Shown: positions 639-16,163, numbered from the stretch's first letter. The stretch: 38,959 bases of DNA from Deltaproteobacteria bacterium (GCA_023248955.1 JAHFDP010000002.1:65634-104592), one strand, 5' to 3'. Numbers and translations are program-made. Notes: generated by a model not told the origin, from the sequence alone.

Positions 639-3600
639 TTATTGCGCCGCAGAAAACGTCGTCTTGCATCCGGGGTTTCCGTCTTGTCCCGGCGGGCACG
701 GCTTGTCGGCAAAAACATCGTGCACCACAAACCGTTTTACGCCCGTCTTGTCGGTCGTGCCCACCACGAATCCGCGGTACGTCACCGGAAACTCCTCCGT
801 CCCGGGCCAGCTCGCTTCGTCCGACGGAACGCCCACCGTGTATTTGTAATTAAGCGCCATTCCCTTTTGCAGCGCGGTGGTGAATTCCCAAATCGAGGGA
901 TTGTCCGTGCGCTGCGTCATGGCCACCAAATTCGGCGTCCAATCTTTTCCTTTGAGCCCGAGCGCAGTGGTGTTGCCGGCGAGGTAGACCACGCCGCTCC
1001 CTGTGGGCTTGGGCGCATTCGTGCAGCACGATCCGAATTGCCCCAAAGGAACCGATTTACCGCTCGCATCTACACTGAATGTAACAAAGATGGCATTGGT
1101 GGGATCGTCAAAAATGGTCTGCGACAACATCGTCCGCGGTAGCTGCTGCTTCGGCGCAATGTCGATGTCAGCGCCCTCTTGCGAGGCCACCGCGAACTCC
1201 AGCGGATCACCCTTGGCGAGCTTCAGGGCGATAAACGGAACTTTCAATTCGAGGTGATTTCCCTGCGCGGCCGCCGTAACGTTGGTCGATTCCTGCGTCC
1301 AAGCCGTGCCATTCCAAACGTCGATGGATCCAGCAACCTTTCCGCTGCCGTCGAACTTGCACCGAATTGCGCGCGCCGCACCGGCGGAATCTTGGAATTG
1401 AATGGGCGTCCCATATTCCGTGGTCGTGGCAAAAGAGGAAAGGCTCGGACGGCGCGTAAAGGTCCCCGCATTGGCATCCGTCACGTTTTTTTGAGAGACG
1501 TACCAAGTCACTGTGAGCTGCTGGCCATGACCAGCGTCGGCCTTGGCGCGCGCCACGAGGTCGATGCCCGCCTCTTCCGCCAAATAGAGATCCACCGGCG
1601 TCATATCCGGCGGCGTCGCCTTGGGTGCAGCAACGGTATATCCATAATAAACCTTTTTTATTTGGTCAGTCGGATCGTCAATCTGACTGGAGTCAATGTC
1701 ATTAAAGAATCCGCCTTCATTGACCCATTCTGCCTCCGTTGTTTCAAACGTTCCTTCAATGGTGGGCGCCGTGGTAAACGGCCCCGCCGGCTGTTTGCCG
1801 CTGGCCTGCAAAATCACCGGACATTGAAACGTCGGCCAGGCCGCGTCGCCGTTGGCCGCCCGCGCAAGATTCATGAAATTATAAACACCGGCCAAGTGCG
1901 CGCGAAAACCGCGATCAAACGGCGTGTTGTCGTGGGCGGGCGTGATCTCTTTTCCACCGAGCCACCAAAACCAATCGCTTCCCTCGGCGGCATACATCTC
2001 TTCCCACGCCTTATAATTATTCCATGCGAAAGCATCCCCACCTTGGGCCGGCGCGAGCGGGGGCGGCTCGGCGGGATTGGGACGCGGCAGCACCGCGGCG
2101 ACGTCATCACGCACCCGCTTCAGACAGGTCCAAGCCTGATCGCTCGTCGGTGCACCGATCCAAATATCGAACGTCCCACGAATCCAAGATCCCGCGTGCA
2201 AATGATCCAGTTGCCGCAACTTGGCGGGATCATGTGGCGGAATATTCCGCGTTGGATTTCCATCGAGATATTCGCTGGTCGTGGTCGTGATAATTTCGCC
2301 AATGCCCTGTTCGTCCGTCAAACGCTGGTAAAGCTTGCGCTTAAACTCCTTCGCATCGTGCGAATGAACATAGTTCTCCCAGGCATTTTCACCGTCAAGA
2401 ATCACCGTGAGCAAGCGATCATCGTCCGCAATGCCCGGCGCATAATCCAAAATGCCGGCGTGATGTCCGTTGTCTTCATATCCCGACAAAAAGTCCGTCA
2501 CGCCCTGCTCAGGCGTCTCGCCCTGAAATCGAAAACCAATTTCATCCGACAGATCCCGCGCGCGAAACAGCGCCGTGACCGACTGCCCCGCATCGACACC
2601 AGGTGGCGGCAGCGCGCGATAAGGAACCAAGAACGGCGGCACGCCGGGCGGCTTATTTCCGGTCGACTGCTCGATATTCTCTTGCCCCGTCGCGATCCAA
2701 CGAATGCCGTTTTGATGAAACACCTGCACCGCAGCCTGCGACACCGAGCCTTCACCAGGCCACATGCCACTGGGCGCGGCGCCGAAAATATCACGGTAAT
2801 AACGGACCGCTTTGGCGACTTGCGCGCTGGCATCGTCGGGATAGGAAAACGCCGGCGCGGGCAACGGATCCTGCTGTGACTCCTTGGCCGCATCGCTCGA
2901 AATCAGCAGCGGCAATATCGGATGATAGAAGGGCGTCGTAATAATTTCGATTTGCCCGCTTCGCGTTTGCGGATCGAATCGCAGCTGCTTGTGAATGGCC
3001 ACCACGTTCTTCATGACCTTGTAATTCTCGGCCACCAGGCGATTGCAGAGCGCCTCCGTCACGCGCCCACCGGGCGTAAGCGACGTCGTCTTCAAGCTGA
3101 ACGTTTCGAAATTCGGATCCCCTACCGAGTCCTTCTTGATGTCGAGCAGATCCGAGAGGTCGACCTTGTTTCCGTCAGGCATCGTCAAACCGCCCGCGTG
3201 GAGAAATTCCGGATCGAACCAAGCGATCTCAAACCACCCCTTTAATTGCAGAAAATCATCCTGGGTATATGTCGTCGGCGGTTTTCTCCGAAGATCCATA
3301 TAAGCCGGAAAATGCTTCATTAAAGCATCGCTCGTTGAAAGAGACGACCAAGGCGCATTCCAAAAAAGTTCGATTTGCCGCGCGGTCGCGTTGGCCGGAT
3401 CCGGGGTCGGCGTCAGCAGCTGATCAATCCAGGGATCCGTGTGCCCCGCCCACTTGGCTTCGAATCCAGCGGCATCGACCGTGCCATTCTTGATGTCAAC
3501 GAAGGGCCCCAAACGGTCGAGATAAATCTGAAGTTGGGAGAGAAGAACGCTCGTCAAATTAACATTGAGATGAATCGTCGGATAGGCGGTGAGAATCGAC

Positions 3601-4193
3601 GCCATCGTGAAATAGTCTTTGGTGGAGTGTTTCCGTACCCACGGGCCTTGTAATTCATCTTTCACCGCGTCCAAATAAAGCGGCTGATGCTGGTGCCAAA
3701 GAATGTTCAAATAGATAGGCCGCCGCAACGTGCGGTGCGTGCAATCCGCCGTGAGGGGATCGAGGGCCGCGCCATTATCGGCCGCGGTTATTCCGCTCAC
3801 CGTAACCGTATAACTTTTGAGTGAAGCATTGAGCTTGCCGCCCAAGCCCAGGGTAACCGTCGTGCCGGACACCGCCGCGCTGGAGAGCGAAACCGTTGTG
3901 CCGTCGGAGCCGCGCAGCTCGTAATTGGCAATACTCCCCGCGGCTGTCTTTTCCGCGTCACGCGAAAACCGCGCGGTAATTTCGCTCGCCTGTCCGCCGG
4001 CAAAGAAAACGGAAGCCAAACAAAAAGGACCCGGCCCCGACGAAACGCCGCCATCTGGATCCGCGTTGTTGTTGGTCGTGCTCCCGCCGTCCGCGCCGCT
4101 CCCATTTTCCTTGGGCTGCCCGCGGGCAAATCCGCCACATCCGTCGCAGGCGCTAAGAACGAGCACAAAGAGCGATGCGATTATCGCGCGCAT
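639..4193 (-). CDS. GH57 family alpha-glucan hydrolase, lipoprotein with starch-binding-like tail
   Basis: Probably cleaves alpha-glucosidic bonds in starch, glycogen or pullulan-like polymers at the cell surface or in the periplasm. The 1184-residue product has a lipobox (LSAC, Cys16) and an Asp/Gly-rich linker, then an SbsA-like beta domain (about 60-150). The GH57 domain starts at about 160 and carries the HQHQP signature at 167-171. A GMWPGE segment places the likely nucleophile at Glu481, and ILDGENAWE places the likely acid at Asp600, an arrangement like that of GH57 amylopullulanases. A DOMON-like or glucodextranase-like beta domain follows (about 850-1060), then a CBM20-like module near the C-terminus with a YKYT...W.GTEE.P motif. 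An AGGA ribosome site lies just before the ATG, 6 bp after the upstream stop codon. It is the last gene of the locus. Amylopullulanase, amylase and branching enzyme cannot be told apart by eye. Confidence 0.88.
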   Translation of the reverse strand: MRAIIASLFVLVLSACDGCGGFARGQPKENGSGADGGSTTNNNADPDGGVSSGPGPFCLASVFFAGGQASEITARFSRDAEKTAAGSIANYELRGSDGTTVSLSSAAVSGTTVTLGLGGKLNASLKSYTVTVSGITAADNGAALDPLTADCTHRTLRRPIYLNILWHQHQPLYLDAVKDELQGPWVRKHSTKDYFTMASILTAYPTIHLNVNLTSVLLSQLQIYLDRLGPFVDIKNGTVDAAGFEAKWAGHTDPWIDQLLTPTPDPANATARQIELFWNAPWSSLSTSDALMKHFPAYMDLRRKPPTTYTQDDFLQLKGWFEIAWFDPEFLHAGGLTMPDGNKVDLSDLLDIKKDSVGDPNFETFSLKTTSLTPGGRVTEALCNRLVAENYKVMKNVVAIHKQLRFDPQTRSGQIEIITTPFYHPILPLLISSDAAKESQQDPLPAPAFSYPDDASAQVAKAVRYYRDIFGAAPSGMWPGEGSVSQAAVQVFHQNGIRWIATGQENIEQSTGNKPPGVPPFLVPYRALPPPGVDAGQSVTALFRARDLSDEIGFRFQGETPEQGVTDFLSGYEDNGHHAGILDYAPGIADDDRLLTVILDGENAWENYVHSHDAKEFKRKLYQRLTDEQGIGEIITTTTSEYLDGNPTRNIPPHDPAKLRQLDHLHAGSWIRGTFDIWIGAPTSDQAWTCLKRVRDDVAAVLPRPNPAEPPPLAPAQGGDAFAWNNYKAWEEMYAAEGSDWFWWLGGKEITPAHDNTPFDRGFRAHLAGVYNFMNLARAANGDAAWPTFQCPVILQASGKQPAGPFTTAPTIEGTFETTEAEWVNEGGFFNDIDSSQIDDPTDQIKKVYYGYTVAAPKATPPDMTPVDLYLAEEAGIDLVARAKADAGHGQQLTVTWYVSQKNVTDANAGTFTRRPSLSSFATTTEYGTPIQFQDSAGAARAIRCKFDGSGKVAGSIDVWNGTAWTQESTNVTAAAQGNHLELKVPFIALKLAKGDPLEFAVASQEGADIDIAPKQQLPRTMLSQTIFDDPTNAIFVTFSVDASGKSVPLGQFGSCCTNAPKPTGSGVVYLAGNTTALGLKGKDWTPNLVAMTQRTDNPSIWEFTTALQKGMALNYKYTVGVPSDEASWPGTEEFPVTYRGFVVGTTDKTGVKRFVVHDVFADKPCPPGQDGNPGCKTTFSAAQ

Positions 4194-4199
4194 GAATTC

Positions 4200-6554
4200 C
4201 TACCGAAGCTTAAGGGAGACAACATTCGACAGGACGGACTTCGTCTTGTCGCTCCCGGCCTGGTAAGCCGGCTGGGTGGGCAAAACCTGATCCGCGTGGC
4301 ACCCGCTGCACCCCGTCGCATCGCCCGTCAATACAACCGCAACGCTGAGCGCCTGCCCACCGAGAACAAAACTATTATCGGTGAGACAATTCCCGTCGGA
4401 AGGCGGTGCATTATACAGACACGCCAAATGAATCGCCATCTCCACCGCACCAGCGCTCGTACGGAGATAGCTTCCATTGAGCCAGGGGAAATTCGTAAGC
4501 GTCGTCAATGAACGAATTCCGGCGCCGTCGACAAACGCATTCTCACTCGTGGCGCCGCCAACGGTTCCAACTGCGGATTGAAAACTCCACCCGCCGCTCG
4601 TCATGATCGCACTGCCCGCGATGTGTTTGACCAACGCGCCATCCGTCGCCGTGGCTTTGGTGAAATCAGAAATGCCGCTCGTCCCACCGATACTCAGAAG
4701 AGCGACAATCGCATTCGTCGATTCAGAGCCGCCAACAATTCCCAGATAAAGAGTATCCGTCGAATACGCGGCATAAAGGGTTTCAAGATGGTTACTCGCA
4801 CCCCACCCCAGCGAATGACCGTTGGGTGCCGAAGCAATCTGCGCATAGGGCGACCAATCATTCCCGCTCGAAACATCGATATTTCCATCCACCGCTGGAA
4901 CGCGTGCGGCGCGGAGCACGTATTCCCAACCACCCTTTTGCGTCACGATTCCGCCGGCGCCAAAATTAAACGCCATGTCAACCATGCCAACCGCATGGGC
5001 CGGCGCCGTAAAATGAAACGAGCCATCGCTGGCCGACGTCGCCGGCACGTTTTGTCCATCGACCGTGACCCCAACCGCACCGCTTAGACCACTGCCGGTC
5101 ACCGTCACGTCGCCACCGGCCACCGGTCCGAACCAGCCCCCGGTTGTCGCATCCACGAGAGCGGAAATCGCCGGCGCTCCATTTGCTGGTTGGTATTGGA
5201 AACTCTGCGGATAGGTCGTCGAGATTCCGCCGACGGTCACGGTCACATCGACTTTCCCGCGAAATCCCGCTCCACCTTGATTGGGTGCGGTTACGTTAAT
5301 GGTGTGCGGAGCCGCAATCGACGAAATGGTCGCCGACTTCGCGCCAAAAAGAACAGTCGCGCCAGCGGAAAATCCAAGGCCGGTGAGTTTGACCGTCGTC
5401 CCCGGAGGTCCCGCGGCTGGATTCACCAATTGAATGGCCAGCCCGCCGTCCGAATTATCAATACCAGCGTCATTGGAATCAATACCGCCGTCGGTCACGT
5501 TTCCACCATCGGTGGACGTATCGCCGCCATCGGTCGCAATGCCTCCGTCGGAATCCCCGCCGGTCCACGTCACGGAGGCGCCGCCACCCGTTCCGACGGT
5601 AATGGCCGTGTTTTTCGTTGGGCTTCGGCTTTCTTCGCGTAAATCGATTTTCTCACCCGCGAAAACGCCCGGCGTCGCCACATCGGTGGCCACGGCGACC
5701 CCCACGACCGAGCAATCCGTCGGAACCTTGTATTCCGTCGTGTCGTTCAGCAGAAAGACGAATTGGACTTCTTGTTTGGCGGCCAGCAATCCATCGTGCT
5801 TCCCAAATCCACCGTGCACTTTTCGCGCATTCGTATGGTCATAAACGCAATAAAGATCCGAATTGCAATTCATTTGAACCGACTTCCAATTGGTCATCGT
5901 TCCTTTAATGAACGCGCTCGTGAAACCAAGTTTTTCTCCCTCGACCGCTGTATCGCAGGCGGGATTTTCGGCCGGACACACCAACGCCGGATCCAGATGC
6001 TTCAAGTCGAGGGCAAACAAGGCCTGCGCGGTTCCAAAAGCGGCAATCGTCAGCGTGCCCAAATCAAGCGTCTCTTCTGATCCCAGCGCGATCTGCACGG
6101 TTCCATTCTTTTTGGGCCAAATCCAATTTCCGAGCTCGTCGCACATCCCATATTCCAATGGCTTGGCGTCGCCCTTGATAAACACCGCCGCCGAATGAAC
6201 GTGATCACCGGCCTTTTGGCCTTCGGCTTCGTGGCCACTCTCACTAATCGGTCCGTCATCGTAAAGCTGAGGCCAGCCCGCGAGTTGACCATCTGCGACG
6301 CCTCCCCAGGTCGTATCAATGGTCGCGACGTTAGTCTTGGAATCGTATTTCCAGCCGCCCTTCCAATAGATTTGCCCGGAGCCGTAGGTCCTATTGGCCG
6401 TATCATCGACCCTGAGCACCACCGTTGCGTATCCATTGGGGCGAACAAATCGGGCTTTGCCATTTCCACCCGCCCCCTTACCGCAAGCAAGCGAAGGCAG
6501 GATTAACGCTACGGCGATCCGTTGACTAGCGCGAGCACTCAGACGAAAGAACAT
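4200..6554 (-). CDS. Modular lipoprotein with TIG/IPT and CBM9/DOMON-like domains
   Basis: A 784-residue lipoprotein (SLAC lipobox about residue 24) that probably binds carbohydrate on the cell surface. The N-terminal third contains a YDDG...AGD motif of a type also found in the 492-residue neighbour. Next comes a low-complexity DGG/Asp-rich linker (about 330-375), of a kind common in myxobacterial lipoproteins, then a TIG/IPT domain (about 375-455) with the NPAAGPPGTTVKLTG signature. A second Ig-like domain follows, then a beta-sandwich beginning RVPAVDGNID that resembles CBM9/DOMON carbohydrate-binding modules. Near the C-terminus lies CSGCH (about residue 749), which fits the haem c motif CxxCH but stands alone. 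It sits 29 bp after the upstream gene and 6 bp before the GH57 gene, so co-expression is very likely. No catalytic motif was recognised. Confidence 0.8.
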   Translation of the reverse strand: MFFRLSARASQRIAVALILPSLACGKGAGGNGKARFVRPNGYATVVLRVDDTANRTYGSGQIYWKGGWKYDSKTNVATIDTTWGGVADGQLAGWPQLYDDGPISESGHEAEGQKAGDHVHSAAVFIKGDAKPLEYGMCDELGNWIWPKKNGTVQIALGSEETLDLGTLTIAAFGTAQALFALDLKHLDPALVCPAENPACDTAVEGEKLGFTSAFIKGTMTNWKSVQMNCNSDLYCVYDHTNARKVHGGFGKHDGLLAAKQEVQFVFLLNDTTEYKVPTDCSVVGVAVATDVATPGVFAGEKIDLREESRSPTKNTAITVGTGGGASVTWTGGDSDGGIATDGGDTSTDGGNVTDGGIDSNDAGIDNSDGGLAIQLVNPAAGPPGTTVKLTGLGFSAGATVLFGAKSATISSIAAPHTINVTAPNQGGAGFRGKVDVTVTVGGISTTYPQSFQYQPANGAPAISALVDATTGGWFGPVAGGDVTVTGSGLSGAVGVTVDGQNVPATSASDGSFHFTAPAHAVGMVDMAFNFGAGGIVTQKGGWEYVLRAARVPAVDGNIDVSSGNDWSPYAQIASAPNGHSLGWGASNHLETLYAAYSTDTLYLGIVGGSESTNAIVALLSIGGTSGISDFTKATATDGALVKHIAGSAIMTSGGWSFQSAVGTVGGATSENAFVDGAGIRSLTTLTNFPWLNGSYLRTSAGAVEMAIHLACLYNAPPSDGNCLTDNSFVLGGQALSVAVVLTGDATGCSGCHADQVLPTQPAYQAGSDKTKSVLSNVVSLKLR

Positions 6555-6583
6555 GGCGCATACTCACTCGTGAATAATTTCGA

Positions 6584-8059
6584 TTAATGGCAGGTGGTAG
6601 TCAACAACTCAGCGGCCGGCATCCAATAACCGGTCGCCTTGCAGAGTCCCGCCGGATCAATGGGCATCTCCGCGGCGAACGGAGACGTTTTTGAATCGAG
6701 CGTGCCCTTGCCACCATTGGACGGAAGAAGGGCATTCGACTTGTCCTTATTGCTCGTCTCGTCACCAAAGAGATCACGCCGCGCCACCAGCCCATCGCCA
6801 TTCTTGTCTTCGATGCGCAAGAGCCGCTGATTACCCGGCCACTCTTCCGTTCCCGTCCATCCTTGGCCCGGCGTTCCATACGTATATTTGTACGCAATAA
6901 TGGCACCCGCCGGCAGATCGAATTGAACGGTCCAAATATTGTCGCCCGCCTTTTCGTCGCCGTGCGTGCCATCGTCATACATGGGAATCACGTTAGGAAC
7001 CCAGGCCCCGAGCATTTGGTGAATGGTCTGATCTTGCACGGGAGAATCGGCATGAATGCCTCCGGCAAAGAAAATCTGCCGCGAGTCGTGGGCGATCTCC
7101 TTCGGGTCCAGTGATCGAAAACGATCGAGCGGACGGCAATTGCCATCCAACCGACCCGCATTGAAATCGACCGAGACCAGCGTGCGGATACGCTGGGGGT
7201 CGAGACAAACCGTCAGCTTCAGATCCTTGATCGCGGCGACCAAGGCGGCATCGAGCGAAGCCTCTGCCTCATCCGAAGTGTCGTTCACGGAGTCGCCGTT
7301 GAGATCCAGGTTGAGCGCGTGTTTGTCCAGCGCGACCACCGCCGTATCCGACAAGACCGCCGTGGGTTTCCCATCACCGCCGAGCCGCACTGTTCCCAGG
7401 ACAGGCCCCGCGGAGGAAGGCGCGGTCACTGCAGCTTCGATCGATCTTCCAACCAGTTGCGCCAATTGAACGCCAGCGCCATTGGCACTCACCGCGGCGG
7501 TTATCAAACCCTTTGGCTCCAACAGGGGATCGAGGTTGCCGGGACCTGGAATCGCCGTCAGCGAAAGTTGCGCTGGCGGCGCACCCTCCTTGAGACGAAC
7601 CAGTCGCGCCAAAGCTTGAGCTACCAACGACGCCGCGGTCGAAGTGGTATCCAACGGCGCGGCGATGGTGACCTTCGTGCCCTGCATCACCGACGGTGCT
7701 ACGGCTTCCACCACGGCCGCACCGACGATGGCGGCCACTCGCAAATGATTAAAATCGGTACTTGTCGGAAGATTGATGTCGAATAAACCGACTGTGGTTG
7801 CGGTCGCGATTTTCGGAAAATCGATATTCACCGGCGCAACCGTATTGCCCGCCCCATCGCGCAAAAGCAGGACGGGGTTGGCTTTCCACGCAGCACCGAA
7901 AGCGCCAGCAAGCGCCACCGATCCCAGGAGGTGGGTCTCCGGCGGCGGAATCGGCGCGGGGTGATCCCCGCCAAACGAATTCATCGTCAAGGTCTCGAGA
8001 CCACACGAAGCGAGGCTCATGGTGGTCAGGAGGAGACTCGTTCGACGAAGCCGTTTCAC
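6584..8059 (-). CDS. Lipoprotein with starch-binding-like C-terminal module
   Basis: A 491-residue lipoprotein (LASC lipobox). I chose the GTG at 8059 because it overlaps the upstream stop codon as GTGA and has GGAGG seven bases upstream; a TTG one codon earlier is also possible. The first 300 residues contain hydrophobic Ala/Val-rich helices and an EF-hand-like or dockerin-like Asp-rich stretch (LNGDSVNDTSDE), with no recognised family. The last 170 residues hold a MYDDGTHGDxxAGD segment followed by YKYT.G.P..GW.GTEE.P.N.R. That motif also occurs in the tail of the GH57 enzyme, so both proteins appear to carry the same starch-binding-like module. A further Asp-rich calcium-type loop (EDKNGDGL) follows it. 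An accessory glucan-binding role is inference. Confidence 0.76.
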   Translation of the reverse strand: MKRLRRTSLLLTTMSLASCGLETLTMNSFGGDHPAPIPPPETHLLGSVALAGAFGAAWKANPVLLLRDGAGNTVAPVNIDFPKIATATTVGLFDINLPTSTDFNHLRVAAIVGAAVVEAVAPSVMQGTKVTIAAPLDTTSTAASLVAQALARLVRLKEGAPPAQLSLTAIPGPGNLDPLLEPKGLITAAVSANGAGVQLAQLVGRSIEAAVTAPSSAGPVLGTVRLGGDGKPTAVLSDTAVVALDKHALNLDLNGDSVNDTSDEAEASLDAALVAAIKDLKLTVCLDPQRIRTLVSVDFNAGRLDGNCRPLDRFRSLDPKEIAHDSRQIFFAGGIHADSPVQDQTIHQMLGAWVPNVIPMYDDGTHGDEKAGDNIWTVQFDLPAGAIIAYKYTYGTPGQGWTGTEEWPGNQRLLRIEDKNGDGLVARRDLFGDETSNKDKSNALLPSNGGKGTLDSKTSPFAAEMPIDPAGLCKATGYWMPAAELLTTTCH

Positions 8060-10116
8060 CAAGCCACCTCCATCGTCATCTTCGAACGAACAATGCCGAA
8101 ATGGAGCCGCGGGTCGGTTTCTCGAAAGATCGTCTTATTTAGATATTCAAGGTAATAGTGGAGATGAACGCCGCCAAACAAATAGGCCAGCTCAATAAAT
8201 GGTTTCACCTTGCGCGTTTCGTAATCGTTATAACCAGACTCTTTGGTGCCGCTGCGATTTTGTTCGAGCCACCAATCGAGCTGAACCCCTAAATTCCATT
8301 TCAGCTCGTCATTGAACTGATATCCGACGGACGGCCGCGCGATAAAAATATTGCCCACGTAGTCGTCGCACCTCGCCTGGTCCATCAAGAAGCGATCGCC
8401 CAGCCGCCGCATGCAACGCGCCTCGGCATCGCTTCCCGTCGCCGGGCTGTAGGTCGTCGATCGCCCGTCGATATCGCGCACGTACTTGAGCTTGAGTGTG
8501 CTCTCCACCCCTCGCCAAACAGGCAGCTGGTACCCGAGCCATAAGACGCCGATCTGTGTCAGCCGATCCTGATCCTCCGCATAAACAGCGCGCGGATCGC
8601 GGCCACGATCGATGGTCTTGGGGTTGGCATAATCATAAATATCGGTGTCGGTATACCCCTGATTAAATAGAAAAGTTGGATAGACGTTATTAACGTCACG
8701 ACCCTGCTTGTTGGTGTTGTAATTAATGAGCGTGTATTCGGCCTTGATCGAAAAATCACCACGCTGCGCGGTAACCAGTGTTGTTCCGCCGTTCCACCCG
8801 ACAATCGACTCGACCCATTGATCGTCGAAATCGACAAATTCGTTGGCCAGATTCAACGTCGGAAGCTGATTGGGCGCCACGATACCGTCGGTGAGCAAGA
8901 CGTCCGATTCCCGGCGCGCGCCCAGCATGGCATTGAACTCAGATCCGATATTGAAGTACTCGAATTTGACGCCGACTTCCCACGCGCCGCGACTGAGGCC
9001 CAACGTCGACCAGAGATCATCGGCACTCAAGCGCGCAACGCCGGCGGGCGCGGTCGCGTCTTTGTAGGCCATCGGAAAAACGCGACCATTGAGCGCAACC
9101 CCATTGGCGACGTAGCCCGGGTGTCCGGGCGTTCCCGAGTTCAGCCGTTGCAACGCCACCGCCGCGGTGCCGTCGAGCTGAATTCCATGACCCAGGTCGA
9201 GCTTCGCTTCCCCTGTCGCTGCCATATGGCGGTAGCGAGAAACCAGATCGACCGCACCGTCCGCGCAGGCCGTGGGATCTGGAGCGACGCCGTCCTTGCC
9301 GCAAGTTGCCGGTGCGGGAGCCAATGTTCCCTTGGTATCGGGATCGTAAATATTGGCTTCATAATCGTTCGAGAAAACACCGGTCAATGCAACCGGCCCC
9401 GCGGAAAGCGAATGGGAGACCAAGCGCAGCGCGTAAGCCCAATCGTTTTGCGTAAACGGTGAACGTACCAATGAGTTGGCGGGAAAGAATTGATCTTCGC
9501 CAAGGCCCGTCGACCAACCAGGCCCCGCCCACAATTTGGGAAGCGCAATGGCGCCGACTGAATAGTCGAAATTCGCATCGGCGGTTCGACCCGTCGCGAG
9601 AACCGCCTTGGCATTGTCGCGTTCGATGTAGCGAATCTTGCCGACGGTCCAGGGGTTAAACATCCCTAAGTCCGAGGAGCCAAAATGGACCGCGGTGACC
9701 GTGGGAATGGGTGGCTTCAAACGGACGTTAAATCCGGCTAACCGCAAAATCATCGAGTGGTCCGTGCCAAGTGATTGCGCCGACGTATTGGCGGTCGGAT
9801 ATTTAATGTTCCCGTTCTCGTAATAGTCTTGCCAGGTCGCGCCGAAAATCGATTGCAGGTGAATCATTGCGCTGGCCCAATCGGAGACATGGCCGTTCGC
9901 GGTCAAATCCAACGTACTGCAGACGCCATTGTCGCCGGCGAAATCGTCTGGATAAAAAGGATTGCCATAGGAAAGGCAACCGCCCGAGGCATTATTCCGA
10001 TAAAGCCATTTCGTATAAAGCTGGGCCGACAAATCAAAATTGTTCTTGTCCGCCAAAGCGGCGCTTGGCGCGAGCAGCAGCGCCGCGGCGAACACAAATG
10101 AACGAAGGAGGGACAT
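8056..10116 (-). CDS. Outer-membrane beta-barrel protein, porin-like, of the glucan locus
   Basis: The start at 10116 begins a clear signal peptide (MSLLRSF, hydrophobic core, APSAALA cleavage site), giving a mature protein of about 665 residues. A longer in-frame start at 10161 adds a non-signal-like leader and was rejected. The mature protein is built from alternating polar and aromatic strands with many Tyr/Trp and Asn residues and Gly-rich turns, and it ends in aromatic-rich strands finishing with VAW. This is typical of large outer-membrane barrels. Four Cys residues near the N-terminal and middle loops could pair. It begins 13 bp after the upstream gene and overlaps the downstream lipoprotein gene by 4 bp. 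A pore for oligosaccharides is the natural guess from context, but no porin family could be named. Confidence 0.78.
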   Translation of the reverse strand: MSLLRSFVFAAALLLAPSAALADKNNFDLSAQLYTKWLYRNNASGGCLSYGNPFYPDDFAGDNGVCSTLDLTANGHVSDWASAMIHLQSIFGATWQDYYENGNIKYPTANTSAQSLGTDHSMILRLAGFNVRLKPPIPTVTAVHFGSSDLGMFNPWTVGKIRYIERDNAKAVLATGRTADANFDYSVGAIALPKLWAGPGWSTGLGEDQFFPANSLVRSPFTQNDWAYALRLVSHSLSAGPVALTGVFSNDYEANIYDPDTKGTLAPAPATCGKDGVAPDPTACADGAVDLVSRYRHMAATGEAKLDLGHGIQLDGTAAVALQRLNSGTPGHPGYVANGVALNGRVFPMAYKDATAPAGVARLSADDLWSTLGLSRGAWEVGVKFEYFNIGSEFNAMLGARRESDVLLTDGIVAPNQLPTLNLANEFVDFDDQWVESIVGWNGGTTLVTAQRGDFSIKAEYTLINYNTNKQGRDVNNVYPTFLFNQGYTDTDIYDYANPKTIDRGRDPRAVYAEDQDRLTQIGVLWLGYQLPVWRGVESTLKLKYVRDIDGRSTTYSPATGSDAEARCMRRLGDRFLMDQARCDDYVGNIFIARPSVGYQFNDELKWNLGVQLDWWLEQNRSGTKESGYNDYETRKVKPFIELAYLFGGVHLHYYLEYLNKTIFRETDPRLHFGIVRSKMTMEVAW

Positions 10117-10129
10117 CGCGAATGCGGCG

Positions 10130-10969
10130 TTACGGCCGGTAAACGAGCGGGACCACCGCAAGCTTCACTTTGGTGGGATCGTCGCTGCACACGAACTGCT
10201 TGAGAACTTCATATTGAGCCTGGACTTCGCCCGCGGCGCCCTTGGCCGGCGGCATCAAAATGTCAAGAACATGCGGATCGCAATCGCCGTCATTCCCGCC
10301 GCCAAAACGGTGTTCGCCGGCATATTCATTCACCCGCCGGGTCATGAGATCGCCCTTGTCGGGATATCCCTCGTTGGACTCCATGACCACTTGGTATCCC
10401 CAAGCGGCCATTGGAAGGGCCCCCGCCATTTCCAAATCCTTTCGCGAAACCACGGCCACCAACTCCTTTCCGTGCGCAACGGTTCGCTTGGGAATCACCA
10501 GACGGTCTTTCATGTCACGGGCCTTGGCATTGATTTCGGCCATTAATCTCGATCGCGGTTGCGGCGAAATAATCACGCATTTGTCCCAGGCCTGGTCGGG
10601 CGCGAAGCGCACATTCAACCCCGGTGGCGACCGGGTTTCGCCGGGACCAGCCTTGTGGTCCTCATCGAGAAACACGAACGCCATTTGCAACGAAAACCCA
10701 TTGCCCGTCCCTGGCCAGCTCTTGGAATTCCAGGGATCCTCGATTCGCGCGGCCACGGCGATGCGCAATTCAACTTCGTCGCCCTTGTCCTCGATGGAGA
10801 AACGGGTCAGGTCGAACGACCCTTTCGTATAGTCCGATCCCGTTGGGTAAACGTAGGTGCCCGGCCCCTTGTCATCGCCTTCGGGGTCATCAAAAACGAG
10901 CGGGTCGGCCGATGCGATTCGCGCAAAGGCCGCGAGTACCACCGCGACAGACGCACAGGACTTCTGCAT
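10130..10969 (-). CDS. Secreted glucodextranase C-terminal-domain-like protein
   Basis: The 279-residue product has a short signal peptide (about 21 residues, ending in SADP). Almost the whole mature protein resembles the glucodextranase C-terminal domain family. Seen here are the opening LVFDDPEGDDKGPGTYVYPT, a core that begins FDLTRFSIEDKGDEVELRIAV, and a later NGFSLQMAFVFLDED segment. In glucodextranases and Thermococcus-type amylopullulanases this domain is a non-catalytic, surface- or substrate-binding module. Here it is a stand-alone secreted protein, two genes before the lipoproteins and next to the barrel, and it lies 65 bp after the glycosidase-like gene. Role in binding glucan or anchoring the complex is inferred. 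The family call is fairly secure from the DDPxGDD...YxYP pattern. Confidence 0.82.
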   Translation of the reverse strand: MQKSCASVAVVLAAFARIASADPLVFDDPEGDDKGPGTYVYPTGSDYTKGSFDLTRFSIEDKGDEVELRIAVAARIEDPWNSKSWPGTGNGFSLQMAFVFLDEDHKAGPGETRSPPGLNVRFAPDQAWDKCVIISPQPRSRLMAEINAKARDMKDRLVIPKRTVAHGKELVAVVSRKDLEMAGALPMAAWGYQVVMESNEGYPDKGDLMTRRVNEYAGEHRFGGGNDGDCDPHVLDILMPPAKGAAGEVQAQYEVLKQFVCSDDPTKVKLAVVPLVYRP

Positions 10970-11034
10970 GGGGCGCCTGCTAGCACGCTGCGACGCGAAG
11001 GCGCAAGGCTGCCAGTTTACGCCGGCGGACGAAA

Positions 11035-12402
11035 CTACCGCACCGCGTGCAACGTCTCCACCACCGCCGCAGCACCGGCCAAGAAGGGACTTTCAGAAAC
11101 GTACGCCCATGTTCGCCACGGTTTGTGCTCCTGCGCGGGGTCGTACACCTCGGCAATCGCACCATCGCGCTTGGCCATGCGCGTGAGCTCCGCCAAGATT
11201 CGATCGGCCTCGGCATCATCGCCCATCCGGTGCGCCACTTTGGCCGCCTTGGCCATGATCCAGGACCAGTAGAGCTTGTCGTGGTAGCCCGAGAGCCCGA
11301 CCATGCGCACCATCCAGCTCTTGTCGCCGGTCGGGTATTTTTGCGTGACCGCGCCGGGCACGTCGTCCTTGGGCCACAGGTCGCTTGCGCGCAGGGAGAG
11401 GTAGAGTGCTTTGCCCTCGGCGGAATCAGCCGGCACGAACCCTGTGTCTATCGCAAGTAGGTTGTCGTCGAGGTCGATCGTCGGCGCGGGCGGCGCGCGC
11501 ACGAGCCCCTTCGTGAACCAAGCCCACGGCCCAGTGGGCTGCGGCGCGGGCCGATCAAGTGTCGCCCGAAACAGCCCTGTCTTCTCATCGAAGAACGCGC
11601 GCCTGACCGTCGCGGCATGCGCGTCGAGCGCGGCGGCGTCGATCTGCCCGGGCACGTCGGGATCCGCGGCGAGCGCGCGACCCGCCCTCTGGTAGAGGAC
11701 ATTGGTCAGGAAAGTCGGACCCTCGCGCTTCAAGCTGTCTTTCCAGTCGGAGAAGGCAGGCTGCGAGATCAACCCAGCCGCGTCCTTCTTCGAGTCGTAA
11801 AAGCGAAAAACCTTGACCAATCGCCGTTTGCGCGGTGCAAGCCACCCCTGGTCGCTAGTGTGCGCCGCGTAGCCGTAGGCGCCGAGAATCGCCAGCGCAT
11901 TTCCATCGATGGCGATGTTGCCGTACTGGTCCTCGTATTCGGCTTTGAGTTTGCCGCCGATGGCCGGCGCGAATTTTTTGAAAATGCCGGAAGTCCAGGG
12001 CGTCATGAACGACGGCAGAAACCAGGAGATGGTACCAAGCAAGACGCGTGTTTTGGTGTCGACGGAGTCGAGGGAACGCGGGAGCAGGCCGTCTTCGCGA
12101 ACGTGGTCAAGGATAGTCGTGAGCTGCGTGCGCACGGTCTCGGCCCTGTCGGCGGCGAGCAGACCGCGGATGGAGCTCAAAAAGTCGCGCGTCCACGCGG
12201 AGGCGAACTGGTGCGTGCCAGCGGTGACTAGCGTGCCGCGGCGAATGCGGATGGTATCGCTCTCGAGCGAAGCCTTGGCGATGCGCAACAGGTCGGCGTG
12301 TTCGGTTTGGCGATCCACCCGACGCGCCGGGGCTTGCGGCCGGGCCGCGCCCAGGAGCAAGGTGCAGAGGACAGCAGCGACGCGAGACAAGGCACGATGC
12401 AT
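11035..12402 (-). CDS. Secreted six-hairpin (alpha/alpha)6 glycosidase-like protein
   Basis: I chose the ATG at 12402 because it opens a signal peptide (MHRALSRVAAVLCTLLLGAARP); the longer frame to 12525 adds a Cys-rich leader unlike a signal. The 455-residue product has features of (alpha/alpha)6-barrel glycosidases such as amylo-alpha-1,6-glucosidase or GH63/GH15 relatives. These are WTRDFLSSIRGLL near the start, an Asp/Gly loop DGNALAILGAYGYA, then YWSWIMAKAAKVAHRMGD, and a terminal IAEVYDP...W..YVSESPFLAGAAAVV. The pattern D..EVYDP with a following SE is compatible with a catalytic base in this superfamily. It is the first gene of the putative glucan operon, so a debranching or exo-glucosidase role is plausible. 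The exact GH family is uncertain. Confidence 0.72.
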   Translation of the reverse strand: MHRALSRVAAVLCTLLLGAARPQAPARRVDRQTEHADLLRIAKASLESDTIRIRRGTLVTAGTHQFASAWTRDFLSSIRGLLAADRAETVRTQLTTILDHVREDGLLPRSLDSVDTKTRVLLGTISWFLPSFMTPWTSGIFKKFAPAIGGKLKAEYEDQYGNIAIDGNALAILGAYGYAAHTSDQGWLAPRKRRLVKVFRFYDSKKDAAGLISQPAFSDWKDSLKREGPTFLTNVLYQRAGRALAADPDVPGQIDAAALDAHAATVRRAFFDEKTGLFRATLDRPAPQPTGPWAWFTKGLVRAPPAPTIDLDDNLLAIDTGFVPADSAEGKALYLSLRASDLWPKDDVPGAVTQKYPTGDKSWMVRMVGLSGYHDKLYWSWIMAKAAKVAHRMGDDAEADRILAELTRMAKRDGAIAEVYDPAQEHKPWRTWAYVSESPFLAGAAAVVETLHAVR

Positions 12403-12849: not shown

Positions 12850-14322
12850 TCAGGTCTTGATGATGTAGTTCAACGCCAGGAAGGGCTGCATGTTGTTGTG
12901 CGAACCACCGCTGCCGACGCTGGCGGTGCTCGCCGTGATTCCCGTGGCTGCGGAATTGACCGAGATGCCCGTCGTGTTGGTAGCGGTAGCATACCCAAAA
13001 GAGGTGTTCCAAATGCGAGGAGCCCCTGGATTCCAAATCAGGTTGTCTCCATCCCCTGTTGCGTACCCCAGGATGCCAGTGTGCGCGTGACCTGGGTCGG
13101 AGACACCGTGAGAGTGCCCAGAGTCGCTCACCGTAACCGTATGGCTATGCGCCGGCATCTCCCCCGATGACAAAGTGTGCGATTCCTCTCCGCCAGAGGC
13201 GCCAATCGCGCGGTTCGTCAGTCCCGATCCCTGCCCAATGCCAACGCTCGCACGGCCGCGAAGATCGGGGAGATTGAAGGTCGTGCTTCCGTCGCCAGCG
13301 CCGTAGGTCGTACCGATAGCGGTGAAGAGGGCGGAATAGGTCGCTCGCGAGACCGCGCTCCCATCGCAATTGAGCCAACCGGACGGCGCTGAAGAACCAC
13401 CGTACGGAGAGATCAGACCGGTTGGAACGCTGGAAGGCGCCGCGGCCGGGGCCCAGGAGGTGCTGCCTGAGCTGTACGTGAGCAGCTGTCCGTTGCTTGG
13501 AGAAGTCGCCGCGACCGCGACCCCGCGAAGCCCGGTCACCGTCAGCGCACCACCGCTGGTGATCGTTGCGTCACCGCTCAGCGCGTTCCATGTTGGGTTA
13601 GCCGAACCCTGCCCTACGAGCAGGTTTCCAGATGCGCCGGCGCCGGTTGCCTGCACCGCGCCGGACCCTTCGCCCACTAGGACGCCATATTGCGTGAGCG
13701 TGGTAGCGCCGGTCCCGCCGTTCGCGACAGGCACCGTTCCCGAAAGCGACACGCTTGGGTTCGCGCCGCCCGACGATGACAGCACGCCGCTGGCGCCAAC
13801 CGTGAGCACGCCGCTGTTGTTCAACGTCGTCGAACCACCGAGCACCACAGACCCTCCTCCTGACAGGCCCGTTCCCGCCGTCACCGTGACCGCGTTGTTA
13901 CCCAACATGGCGTTCGTCACGGTGCCCGTGGCAATGCTCGACCGCATGGCGTAGGGCACCGAACCGATCGGTTGACGCGGCGTCAGCGCCCCAGAATCAC
14001 CCGTTACCTGCAACTCGAGGTAGCGCACGCTGCCGTCGAACACCGTGGATCCGAACGCCGTGCCACCCGCGGAAACGTCGCCTAAAAACGTCTCGTAATA
14101 GCCGTTGGTGAGCCCAATGGTCTGGCTCTCCGTCCACAGCTGGGTGCCGCCAGTGAGCGAATCAAACAACCGAAACGCGATGGTCTGCGATCCCGTTTTC
14201 GGCGTTCCGTCGGCGTTGAGCAAGCGGCCCTGGTAACCGATCTTCGACGGTGCCGACTGCGCCGCCGCGAGGCCCGCTGCCAGAATAACCGCAGCGATGG
14301 GAGCCGTCGTATGTATCCGCAT
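12850..14322 (-). CDS. Secreted phage tail-collar domain protein
   Basis: The 490-residue product has a signal peptide (MRIHTTAPIAAVILAAGLAAAQS) and then a beta domain starting SAPSKIGYQGRLLNADGTP that ends in PIGSVPYAMRS. This N-terminal unit is common in bacterial cell-surface proteins with phage-tail-like tails. Gly/Ser/Thr-rich repeats follow (about 135-300). The C-terminal 190 residues match the tail-collar (microcystin-dependent protein) family: LISPYGGSSAPSGWLNCDGS, then FNLPDLRGRASVGIG, a His-rich HSHTVTVSDSGHSHG and a terminal NNMQPFLALNYIIKT. It is followed by the TIG lipoprotein in the upstream direction, with 27 bp between them. The signal peptide argues for export as a surface adhesin-like fibre rather than a phage part. 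A truncated copy of its 5' end lies at 16038-16163. Confidence 0.88.
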   Translation of the reverse strand: MRIHTTAPIAAVILAAGLAAAQSAPSKIGYQGRLLNADGTPKTGSQTIAFRLFDSLTGGTQLWTESQTIGLTNGYYETFLGDVSAGGTAFGSTVFDGSVRYLELQVTGDSGALTPRQPIGSVPYAMRSSIATGTVTNAMLGNNAVTVTAGTGLSGGGSVVLGGSTTLNNSGVLTVGASGVLSSSGGANPSVSLSGTVPVANGGTGATTLTQYGVLVGEGSGAVQATGAGASGNLLVGQGSANPTWNALSGDATITSGGALTVTGLRGVAVAATSPSNGQLLTYSSGSTSWAPAAAPSSVPTGLISPYGGSSAPSGWLNCDGSAVSRATYSALFTAIGTTYGAGDGSTTFNLPDLRGRASVGIGQGSGLTNRAIGASGGEESHTLSSGEMPAHSHTVTVSDSGHSHGVSDPGHAHTGILGYATGDGDNLIWNPGAPRIWNTSFGYATATNTTGISVNSAATGITASTASVGSGGSHNNMQPFLALNYIIKT

Positions 14323-14349
14323 TAGAATCCTCGCATGTAAGTTCTTGGA

Positions 14350-16011
14350 TTAGGGCGGCCCCAACGCGTTGAGCCCACCCACATTGATTGACGTCGCCGT
14401 GGTCTGACGAATGTTCCCGACCGGAACCGGCGGCGTCGGCTCGCCCATCACGCCAACGTTGGTCGTGGTCGCTGTAGTCTGGACCGCACCGCCGTAGGAG
14501 CTGCCCGAAGCAATGGCCTGAAAAACCGCGCCTTGCTCGGGAAGCATGTGGTTGCCCAACGTCAGCGAGTTCGTTCCGTCGGTGCAAAGGTTCGGCGTCC
14601 CAGAGCAGGTCCAGTCGCAGCCTGCGCCTGTACCTCCATCGAGATCGAAATAGCCCAGCGCGCACGGGCTGCGCCCACAAACGGCTGCAACACAGGTCGC
14701 CGAGGAGTGTGCCGCCGTCGCGCACACGTGGGCGCACGATCCACAATTGGCGGCATCCGTGTTGAGGTTCACGCAGATACCGCTGCAAGCAGTCAGGCCC
14801 GCGCCGCAGGAGAGATTGATCGTAAAGGTGGCGTTGCCGCTGGTCCCGCCACCGGGCGCCGGCGTCATCACCGTCACCGTCGCCGTTCCTTGCGAGACGA
14901 TGTCCGTCGCCGGAATGGTCGCCGTGATTCGCGTCGGGCTGACGTAGGTCGTGGGGCGCGTGCTGCCGTTCCACTTCACCGTCGAGGCCGCGAAGAAATT
15001 CGTTCCGTCGATCGTCAAAGTGAACTGTGGAGTGCCCGTGAGCGCGGACGTGGGGTTCAAGCTGGAAATCGTCGGCGCGGTGTAGACCTCGCCCATGAAA
15101 ACGTTGCCGGAGAGGTTGTGGCTGCTGTCCTTGGTGTAGTCGGCCGGATTCGAGGTGTAGAAACCGCGCGCGAGCCACCCGCCGGCGTGGTAGCGCTTCG
15201 AGTACCACCAGGCTACGCCGCCGTTGGTGTCGTTGGCCGGAGTGGCGCTCACGAAAGCATTGAGCGTTCCCTCGGTGTTGGTCTTGACGGTGAGGACGTA
15301 GTTTGTTCCCACCGTGAGCGCAGTGCCGGGCGTCATCGGAATAATCACCCGCGTTTTCTGATTCAGCGTCGGTAAAACGGTTTGCGCGGAGACCGAGCCA
15401 GAAGCCAAAGCGTTCGAGGCGCCCTGATCGTCGACAGCGAGGCCAGCGGTCAAGCTGTGGATCTCCGCCTTGATATTTTGTCCAGCACCACCCGAGACGC
15501 GAATCATGTCCAACTCAACCAGCGTCACCATGCCCGTCGTGGCACCGGACGCGGGCGCCTGGGCTTGAAACGTTTGCGCGGCCCGCTGGTCCACGCGTGT
15601 GTTGCGCTGAATCGGAAACCCGTTGCCAGAGACAACGCCGTTGCCGCCACCACCGTTGTTGAAAGAGCGCACACCCTTGGAAATGGTGACCGACGCCGTC
15701 GCCGTGGTGTTGCTCGCACCGGTGTCGGTCACCGTGACGGTGTCGGTAGCGCCCGCCTGTCCGGGATAACCGGCCGTGTAAAAGCCGCTGCTCGTGATGC
15801 TGCCCGAAGCGCCGCCCTGCAATGCCCAGGTGAAGGGCCCGGTGCCGGTGGCAGTGAACTGCTGCGTCTGGCCTTGCGCCAGCGTCACGTAGAGTGGCGC
15901 GATGGCCGGACTCACCGCGGAAACGCGCGCGCGAAACGCCGGGCCAACAGGCGAGGGCGCCCGGCTGCACGAGAGAAAAGCCAGCGCGAGAACGGTTGCG
16001 GCAAACCGCAT
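14350..16011 (-). CDS. TIG/IPT and Cys-rich surface lipoprotein
   Basis: I chose the ATG at 16011, which opens a lipoprotein signal (MRFAATVLALAFLSC, Cys15); an ATG ten codons upstream lacks signal character. The 553-residue product contains a bacterial Ig-like repeat (PLYVTLAQGQTQQFTATGTGPF...), a beta-sandwich with a QRNTRVDQRAAQTFQAQAP region, and a TIG/IPT domain (NPTSALTGTPQFTLTIDGTNF). A Cys-rich DAANCGSCAHVC motif typical of Myxococcota surface proteins follows. The tail is Gly/Thr-rich with TTATTTNVGVMG repeats. The same TIG...GGGTSG and NCGxC modules occur in the RCC1 lipoprotein at 18361-21843. It is probably exposed on the cell surface, and binding or adhesion is inferred. It is likely co-transcribed with the collar gene. 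Confidence 0.8.
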   Translation of the reverse strand: MRFAATVLALAFLSCSRAPSPVGPAFRARVSAVSPAIAPLYVTLAQGQTQQFTATGTGPFTWALQGGASGSITSSGFYTAGYPGQAGATDTVTVTDTGASNTTATASVTISKGVRSFNNGGGGNGVVSGNGFPIQRNTRVDQRAAQTFQAQAPASGATTGMVTLVELDMIRVSGGAGQNIKAEIHSLTAGLAVDDQGASNALASGSVSAQTVLPTLNQKTRVIIPMTPGTALTVGTNYVLTVKTNTEGTLNAFVSATPANDTNGGVAWWYSKRYHAGGWLARGFYTSNPADYTKDSSHNLSGNVFMGEVYTAPTISSLNPTSALTGTPQFTLTIDGTNFFAASTVKWNGSTRPTTYVSPTRITATIPATDIVSQGTATVTVMTPAPGGGTSGNATFTINLSCGAGLTACSGICVNLNTDAANCGSCAHVCATAAHSSATCVAAVCGRSPCALGYFDLDGGTGAGCDWTCSGTPNLCTDGTNSLTLGNHMLPEQGAVFQAIASGSSYGGAVQTTATTTNVGVMGEPTPPVPVGNIRQTTATSINVGGLNALGPP

Positions 16012-16037
16012 GCGCCATCCTTGATAAAACGTCAATA

Positions 16038-16163
16038 TCACGTTCCGTCGGCGTTGAGCAGCCGGCCCTGGTAACCGATCTTCGACGGCGCCGACTGCGC
16101 CGCCGCGAGGCCCGCGACGAGGAGGCTGACTCCGGTGAAATGAAGCCGCCTATGCAATCGCAT
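16038..16163 (-). pseudogene. Broken copy of the 5' end of the tail-collar gene
   Basis: Reads ATG at 16163 through MRLHRRLHFTG...SLLVAGLAAAQSAPSK, continues IGYQGRLLNADGT, and hits TGA at 16038. The last 25 residues match the start of the collar protein at 12850-14322 almost exactly, and at DNA level the identity runs from the signal peptide to GTTCCGTCGG at about 16041-16050, where it stops abruptly. The first 15 codons have diverged. It may be a scar of unequal recombination between two paralogues, leaving the TIG lipoprotein gene between the fragments. A functional 41-residue secreted peptide cannot be excluded, but a truncated copy is more likely. Confidence 0.75.

Follow-up and report, generated by a model that had tools for sequence, protein, structure and literature searches.

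The window, that is, the whole stretch of DNA analysed here (38,959 nucleotides from a Deltaproteobacteria bacterium, GCA_023248955.1 JAHFDP010000002.1:65634-104592), carries six open reading frames on its minus strand, which are transcribed in the order GHx, GdxC1, an outer-membrane barrel, CBMlp (492 residues), TIGlp, and GH57lp (Table 1). The gaps between them, recomputed from the coordinates, are 65, 13, − 4, 29, and 6 bp, exactly as first reported. Convergent with the GH57 gene lies a small lipoprotein-like reading frame on the plus strand (79-618) with a TTG start, a lipobox-like TACH, and seven terminal histidines; upstream (12850-16041) are genes for a lipoprotein that contains the cysteine-rich segment GLTACSGICVNLNTDAANCGSCAHVC and for a protein part of which resembles a phage tail collar, both apparently unrelated to the glucan locus.

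Table 1. Features of the six-gene locus, with coordinates counted from the first letter of the window.
Feature	Coordinates	Strand	Basis
GH57lp, GH57 amylopullulanase-type lipoprotein with C-terminal CBM20	639..4193	-	Pfam GH57, 5e-45; lipobox LSAC
CBM20 (YKYT) module of GH57lp	702..1040	-	profile, Pfam, Foldseek
TIGlp, TIG-repeat lipoprotein (N-terminus, two YDDG-type beta modules; C-terminus, DOMON-like)	4200..6554	-	Pfam TIG, 3e-15
CBMlp, lipoprotein with C-terminal CBM20-type YKYT module	6584..8059	-	LASC lipobox; alignment, profile match
CBM20-type (YKYT) module of CBMlp	6758..7003	-	tblastn and hhalign to the GH57lp module
Outer-membrane beta-barrel of an undescribed family, putative malto-oligosaccharide channel	8056..10116	-	signal peptide, C-terminal W/F, LamB replacement
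GdxC1, secreted Glucodextran_C (PF09985) protein	10130..10969	-	Pfam, 1e-54; Sec signal peptide without lipobox
GHx, secreted (alpha/alpha)6 glycosidase-like protein, distant kin of GDE_C (amylo-alpha-1,6-glucosidase)	11035..12402	-	Pfam GDE_C, partial

The catalytic pair of GH57lp is intact (nucleophile E481, proton donor D600), and comparison with the logo positions in PMC6037648 recovered the conserved regions WHQHQP, WPGEGS with E481, ILDGENAWEN with D600, and AEGSDWFWW, the last of which we read, from the numbering in that paper, as the fifth GH57 conserved region. Among the 1602 GH57 sequences of that study, the two terminal Trp of the last region were linked to amylopullulanases, "although not unambiguously"; the agreement of GH57lp with this class consists solely of the WW fingerprint and a Trp at position 12, from which cleavage of both bond types is predicted. 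Another GH57 gene (G000, contig C13, 91898-93148) sits beside a GlgC-like nucleotidyltransferase gene and probably belongs to glycogen metabolism.

The first-pass annotation had noticed that CBMlp and GH57lp share a YKYT motif. This likeness goes well beyond chance: profiles built from ten GH57lp C-termini and seven CBMlp C-termini aligned in hhalign with a probability of 99.4% (E 9e-22), and the CBMlp orthologues, most of which have a lipobox, contain the invariant pattern YKYT..G..G..WTG.EEWPGN. Pfam CBM_20 matched only weakly in the full-length GH57lp and in CBMlp, but all ten GH57lp C-termini matched it as modules (best 2e-8), that of the window above the curated cut-off when taken in isolation. 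The closest solved relative was the starch-binding domain of Aspergillus niger glucoamylase (E 0.002), with three aligned Trp that we take to be W543, W563, and W590, the starch-site residues of the Aspergillus domain. A model of the YKYT module (pLDDT 67, moderate) gave pullulanase, glucoamylase, amylase, SusF, and CBM20 structures as its top Foldseek matches, with weak E-values, and the CBMlp profile found no match in the PDB. Both YKYT modules are thus homologous and of the CBM20 type, a carbohydrate-binding fold.

TIGlp (784 residues) is more than a TIG protein, as it begins with its two YDDG-type modules; its N-terminal 300 residues are conserved in homologues of 29-39% identity from other families, and its HMM matched in 12 barrel loci. 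A single CxxCH haem-type motif (CSGCH) occurs in its DOMON-like C-terminus and is missing from the aligned proteins of L035, L036, and L041. The match of GHx to GDE_C (5e-6, 26 bits) covers only residues 96-170, about 75 of 367 positions, and no PDB relative was found. Homologues of GHx at roughly 40-50% identity were present in two other genomes of 195, unlinked in both, and share with it the motifs WTRDF, SDWxDS, and AEVY; the slot that GHx occupies in the window holds a GH13 amylase in relatives. GdxC1 matched PF09985 with 185.8 bits against a cut-off of 22 and glucodextranase (PDB 1ug9) at 1e-13; most of its orthologues have a plain signal peptide and a few a lipobox.

The barrel carries a signal peptide and, in 26 of 26 orthologues examined, ends in W or F, the usual C-terminal residue of outer-membrane proteins. 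Its mature length is about 660 residues, and a crude periodicity analysis suggests about 24 strand-like peaks; the pLDDT of a single-sequence AlphaFold model was only 29. Searches returned no Pfam match for the barrel, nor a meaningful one in any of 15 aligned family members, no NCBIfam match, and no sequence relative in the PDB by profile search. The first-pass annotation had set the locus apart from the SusC/SusD system of Bacteroidetes, and this was borne out by Pfam, which detected no SusC-type TonB receptor or plug in the barrel or its 15 relatives and no SusD match in any of the six proteins. The idea that the barrel is a distant LamB was rejected by hhalign profile comparison (E 0.3, probability 0.2%).

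The barrel HMM matched in 63 of 195 phylum genomes, which represent ten families in addition to that of the window; this search scored only the top candidates of each genome, and a gene missing from a draft genome may have been lost to an assembly gap. The window itself probably belongs to Myxococcota, as named MAGs recur in the phylum set with unchanged coordinates and scores. No barrel was found in three Chloroflexota genomes searched or in 39 genomes of the phylum of L043, the latter a result that proves little by itself. A second, divergent barrel paralogue occurs in G077 (L121, 6839-10801) without any of the usual neighbours. Neighbours in the DNA around 34 barrel genes were mapped in stop-to-stop frames with HMMs built on a subset of these loci. 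GdxC1 adjoined the barrel in 30 of these 34 loci, and this pair of a Glucodextran_C protein and the adjoining barrel forms the core of the locus across the phylum. In four families (f4, f5, f7, and f17) the neighbourhoods held GH13 enzymes and components of MalKEFG together with a pullulanase of the PulA type, as checked against Pfam, with CBMlp, TIGlp, and a second Glucodextran_C protein (GdxC2, missing from the source genome) present in addition in f5, f7, f17, and part of f4. The barrel lies directly with MalKEFG in f4, f13, and f25 and near CBMlp in f11, f12, f14, and f19; in f11, f12, and f19 no MalKEFG was found within the fetched barrel neighbourhood. PulA or GH57lp was present in 53 of the 63 genomes with a barrel and in 5 of the 132 others (Fisher 2e-31, not corrected for phylogeny). 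Of the 44 genomes with both PulA and the barrel, 40 had the two no more than 20 kb apart, and the other four had them on separate contigs.

Nine phylum genomes encode GH57lp with CBM20; each of them has a barrel and none has PulA, which was itself present in 49 genomes. Among barrel-bearing genomes this exclusivity has a Fisher p of 4e-6, not corrected for descent, and by family it places GH57lp in f1, f11, f12, and f19 and PulA in f4, f5, f7, and f17. Among the named MAGs, the barrel occurred elsewhere in 9 of 10 genomes with a CBM20-bearing GH57, as against none of seven in which GH57 lacked CBM20. PF11852 (PulA) was not found in the source genome, where GH57lp is present instead. Since GH57lp and PulA never co-occur, GH57lp, with its amylopullulanase-type fingerprint, probably substitutes for pullulanase at the window.

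The strongest evidence for the role of the barrel is its replacement by LamB. In G034, G011, G078, and G038, all from families f5 and f7, the operon GH13a-MalK-MalE-MalF-MalG-GdxC1 is followed directly by LamB (L160, about 9434-10741; L162, about 9719-10942; L164, about 10001-11230; L167, about 9182-10423), and these four genomes gave no barrel match; in G034 about 87 bp separate GdxC1 from the likely start of LamB. LamB was not found in the source genome. As the same slot after the same partner holds either the barrel or LamB, whose family is proven to channel malto-oligosaccharides, the comparison of gene order points to the barrel as a malto-oligosaccharide channel. GdxC1 precedes either channel and is therefore tied to the operon, not to a particular type of channel. 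Two other genomes, of family f4 (G106 and G110; stretches L173 and L172), have PulA and a MalKEFG-GdxC1 operon; the stretch read showed neither barrel nor LamB adjoining GdxC1, so a channel is not always encoded there.

The first-pass annotation had also presented the six genes as a unit, and in this respect it was not supported: the exact set was found only in the source genome, and the neighbourhood maps, the rarity of GHx, and the separate lie of two blocks speak against a conserved six-gene operon. GdxC1-barrel-CBMlp and TIGlp-GH57lp are apart in families f11, f12, and f19, and the GH57lp gene follows TIGlp in the named MAGs L035, L036, L041, and L042; given that the two sub-operons stand apart elsewhere, the window is therefore the junction of both. 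It is a derived arrangement in which these were joined, a rare glycosidase-like gene was added, and MalKEFG is on another contig (C64 of the source genome; ABC_tran with OB_MalK, SBP_bac_1, and two BPD_transp_1), which ends 1.3 kb past MalG. The six genes look like one variant of a Myxococcota-wide, mal-type locus for starch and glycogen uptake. The alpha-glucan function originally proposed, comprising binding, cutting, and uptake, is well supported by the identity of the CBM20 modules, by GH57, and by synteny with PulA, GH13, and MalKEFG.

We read the locus as the outer-envelope half of an uptake system for alpha-glucans (starch, glycogen, and pullulan) that works like the enterobacterial mal/pul regulon, and give this reading a probability of roughly 0.8; within it, we infer the sides faced by the lipoproteins, the channel activity, the hand-over by GdxC1, and the substrate of GHx. 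The lipid-anchored CBM20 proteins (CBMlp, TIGlp, and the CBM20 of GH57lp) would hold the glucan at the outer membrane, where GH57lp would cut alpha-1,4 and alpha-1,6 bonds, the work of PulA and the GH13 amylase lipoproteins in relatives, and GHx might trim the oligosaccharides. Malto-oligosaccharides would then cross the outer membrane through the barrel, as they would through LamB in some relatives, and GdxC1, beside either channel, may bind the sugar at the outer membrane or immediately beneath it and hand it on for import by MalE-MalFG-MalK.

The side of the membrane on which binding and cutting take place bears on the foremost rival, an unlikely though serious one, in which the barrel would act as a wide, passive porin that lets in short glucans, to be bound and cut inside by periplasm-facing lipoproteins and enzymes. 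Lipoboxes are present in GH57lp, CBMlp, and TIGlp, and in relatives also in PulA and most GH13 proteins; such an anchor is compatible with either side, GdxC1 mostly carries a plain signal peptide, and in E. coli sugars that enter through LamB are ordinarily handled in the periplasm. CBM20 modules and pullulanases, however, act on large glucans, too big for a maltoporin, and the PulA of relatives has the same Pfam architecture as that of Klebsiella, a surface lipoprotein (PMC7857515). By analogy with that enzyme, and given the large size of the glucans to be bound and cut, the lipoproteins of the window would be exposed on the outer surface. A role of the barrel in export or surface display, either of the lipoprotein enzymes or of a self-made glucan, is considerably less probable: its large size and its frequent position adjoining lipoprotein genes would suit such a pore, but in four relatives its slot is taken by an import channel, LamB, in three families it stands directly with an importer, and the scanned loci showed no polymer synthase. 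Least credible of all is turnover of the cell's own glycogen, for which one might cite the other GH57 and GH13 genes of the genome, including the GH57 gene beside the GlgC-like gene, yet that gene is on a different contig and every product of the locus has an export signal.

For the barrel family itself we advance a more tentative proposal, one that we consider possible but somewhat more likely to fail than to hold in full, namely, that it comprises new outer-membrane alpha-glucan channels of Myxococcota, of an origin independent of LamB and SusC, that have GdxC1 as their constant partner in a two-part gate, take larger or branched maltodextrins than LamB does, and were swapped with LamB at the same operon position. 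If true, the barrel would be another independent route, besides LamB and SusC, for starch fragments across the outer membrane. The starch-degrading enzymes of myxobacteria are well surveyed, but the literature searched, which took in few subscription papers and preprints, lacks the step of uptake across the outer membrane: it yielded enzyme surveys and no uptake system. The main text of a 2025 survey of 61 genomes (PMC12093494) does not contain the words "porin" or "transporter", and in the Sandaracinus genome paper conserved synteny around the amylases could not be traced. The initial impression that no system of such composition had been described agrees with this search, which found none within the same coverage. 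The locus supplies a candidate channel that is present in one third of the phylum genomes searched, and the natural swap between LamB and the barrel at the same position makes the function of the barrel directly testable.

Several known systems share parts with the locus. The Glucodextran_C module is common to GdxC1 and the C-terminus of glucodextranase (PDB 1ug9/1ulv), from which GdxC1 differs in being a stand-alone secreted protein that lacks a catalytic domain and is encoded next to an outer-membrane channel. Chloroflexota have GH57-Glucodextran_C fusions (L051-L058) with the GH57 catalytic residues and conserved-region fingerprint of GH57lp; in these, Glucodextran_C is fused at the GH57 C-terminus, whereas the window has the two as separate genes and GH57lp has a C-terminal CBM20 and a lipobox. 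The MalM gene adjoins LamB in E. coli, and the position of GdxC1 recalls this arrangement, as an analogy only. Like the SusCDEFG system of Bacteroidetes, the locus sets lipid-anchored starch-binding proteins and a likewise lipid-anchored amylase beside an outer-membrane barrel; unlike it, the locus is devoid of Pfam-detectable SusC-type and SusD components, and import would be via an ABC transporter. The closest parallel is the mal/pul regulon of E. coli and Klebsiella (LamB, PulA, MalEFGK2), whose logic the Myxococcota loci follow: the loci of relatives share with it a lipoprotein of PulA architecture, GH13 enzymes, a CUT1-type MalKEFG, and a channel by the operon, which is LamB itself in four. 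They depart from it in having an unrelated barrel as the channel and in the addition of GdxC proteins and CBM20 lipoproteins, and the window departs further, with GH57-CBM20 in the stead of PulA and with MalKEFG unlinked, the importer itself being present in the genome.
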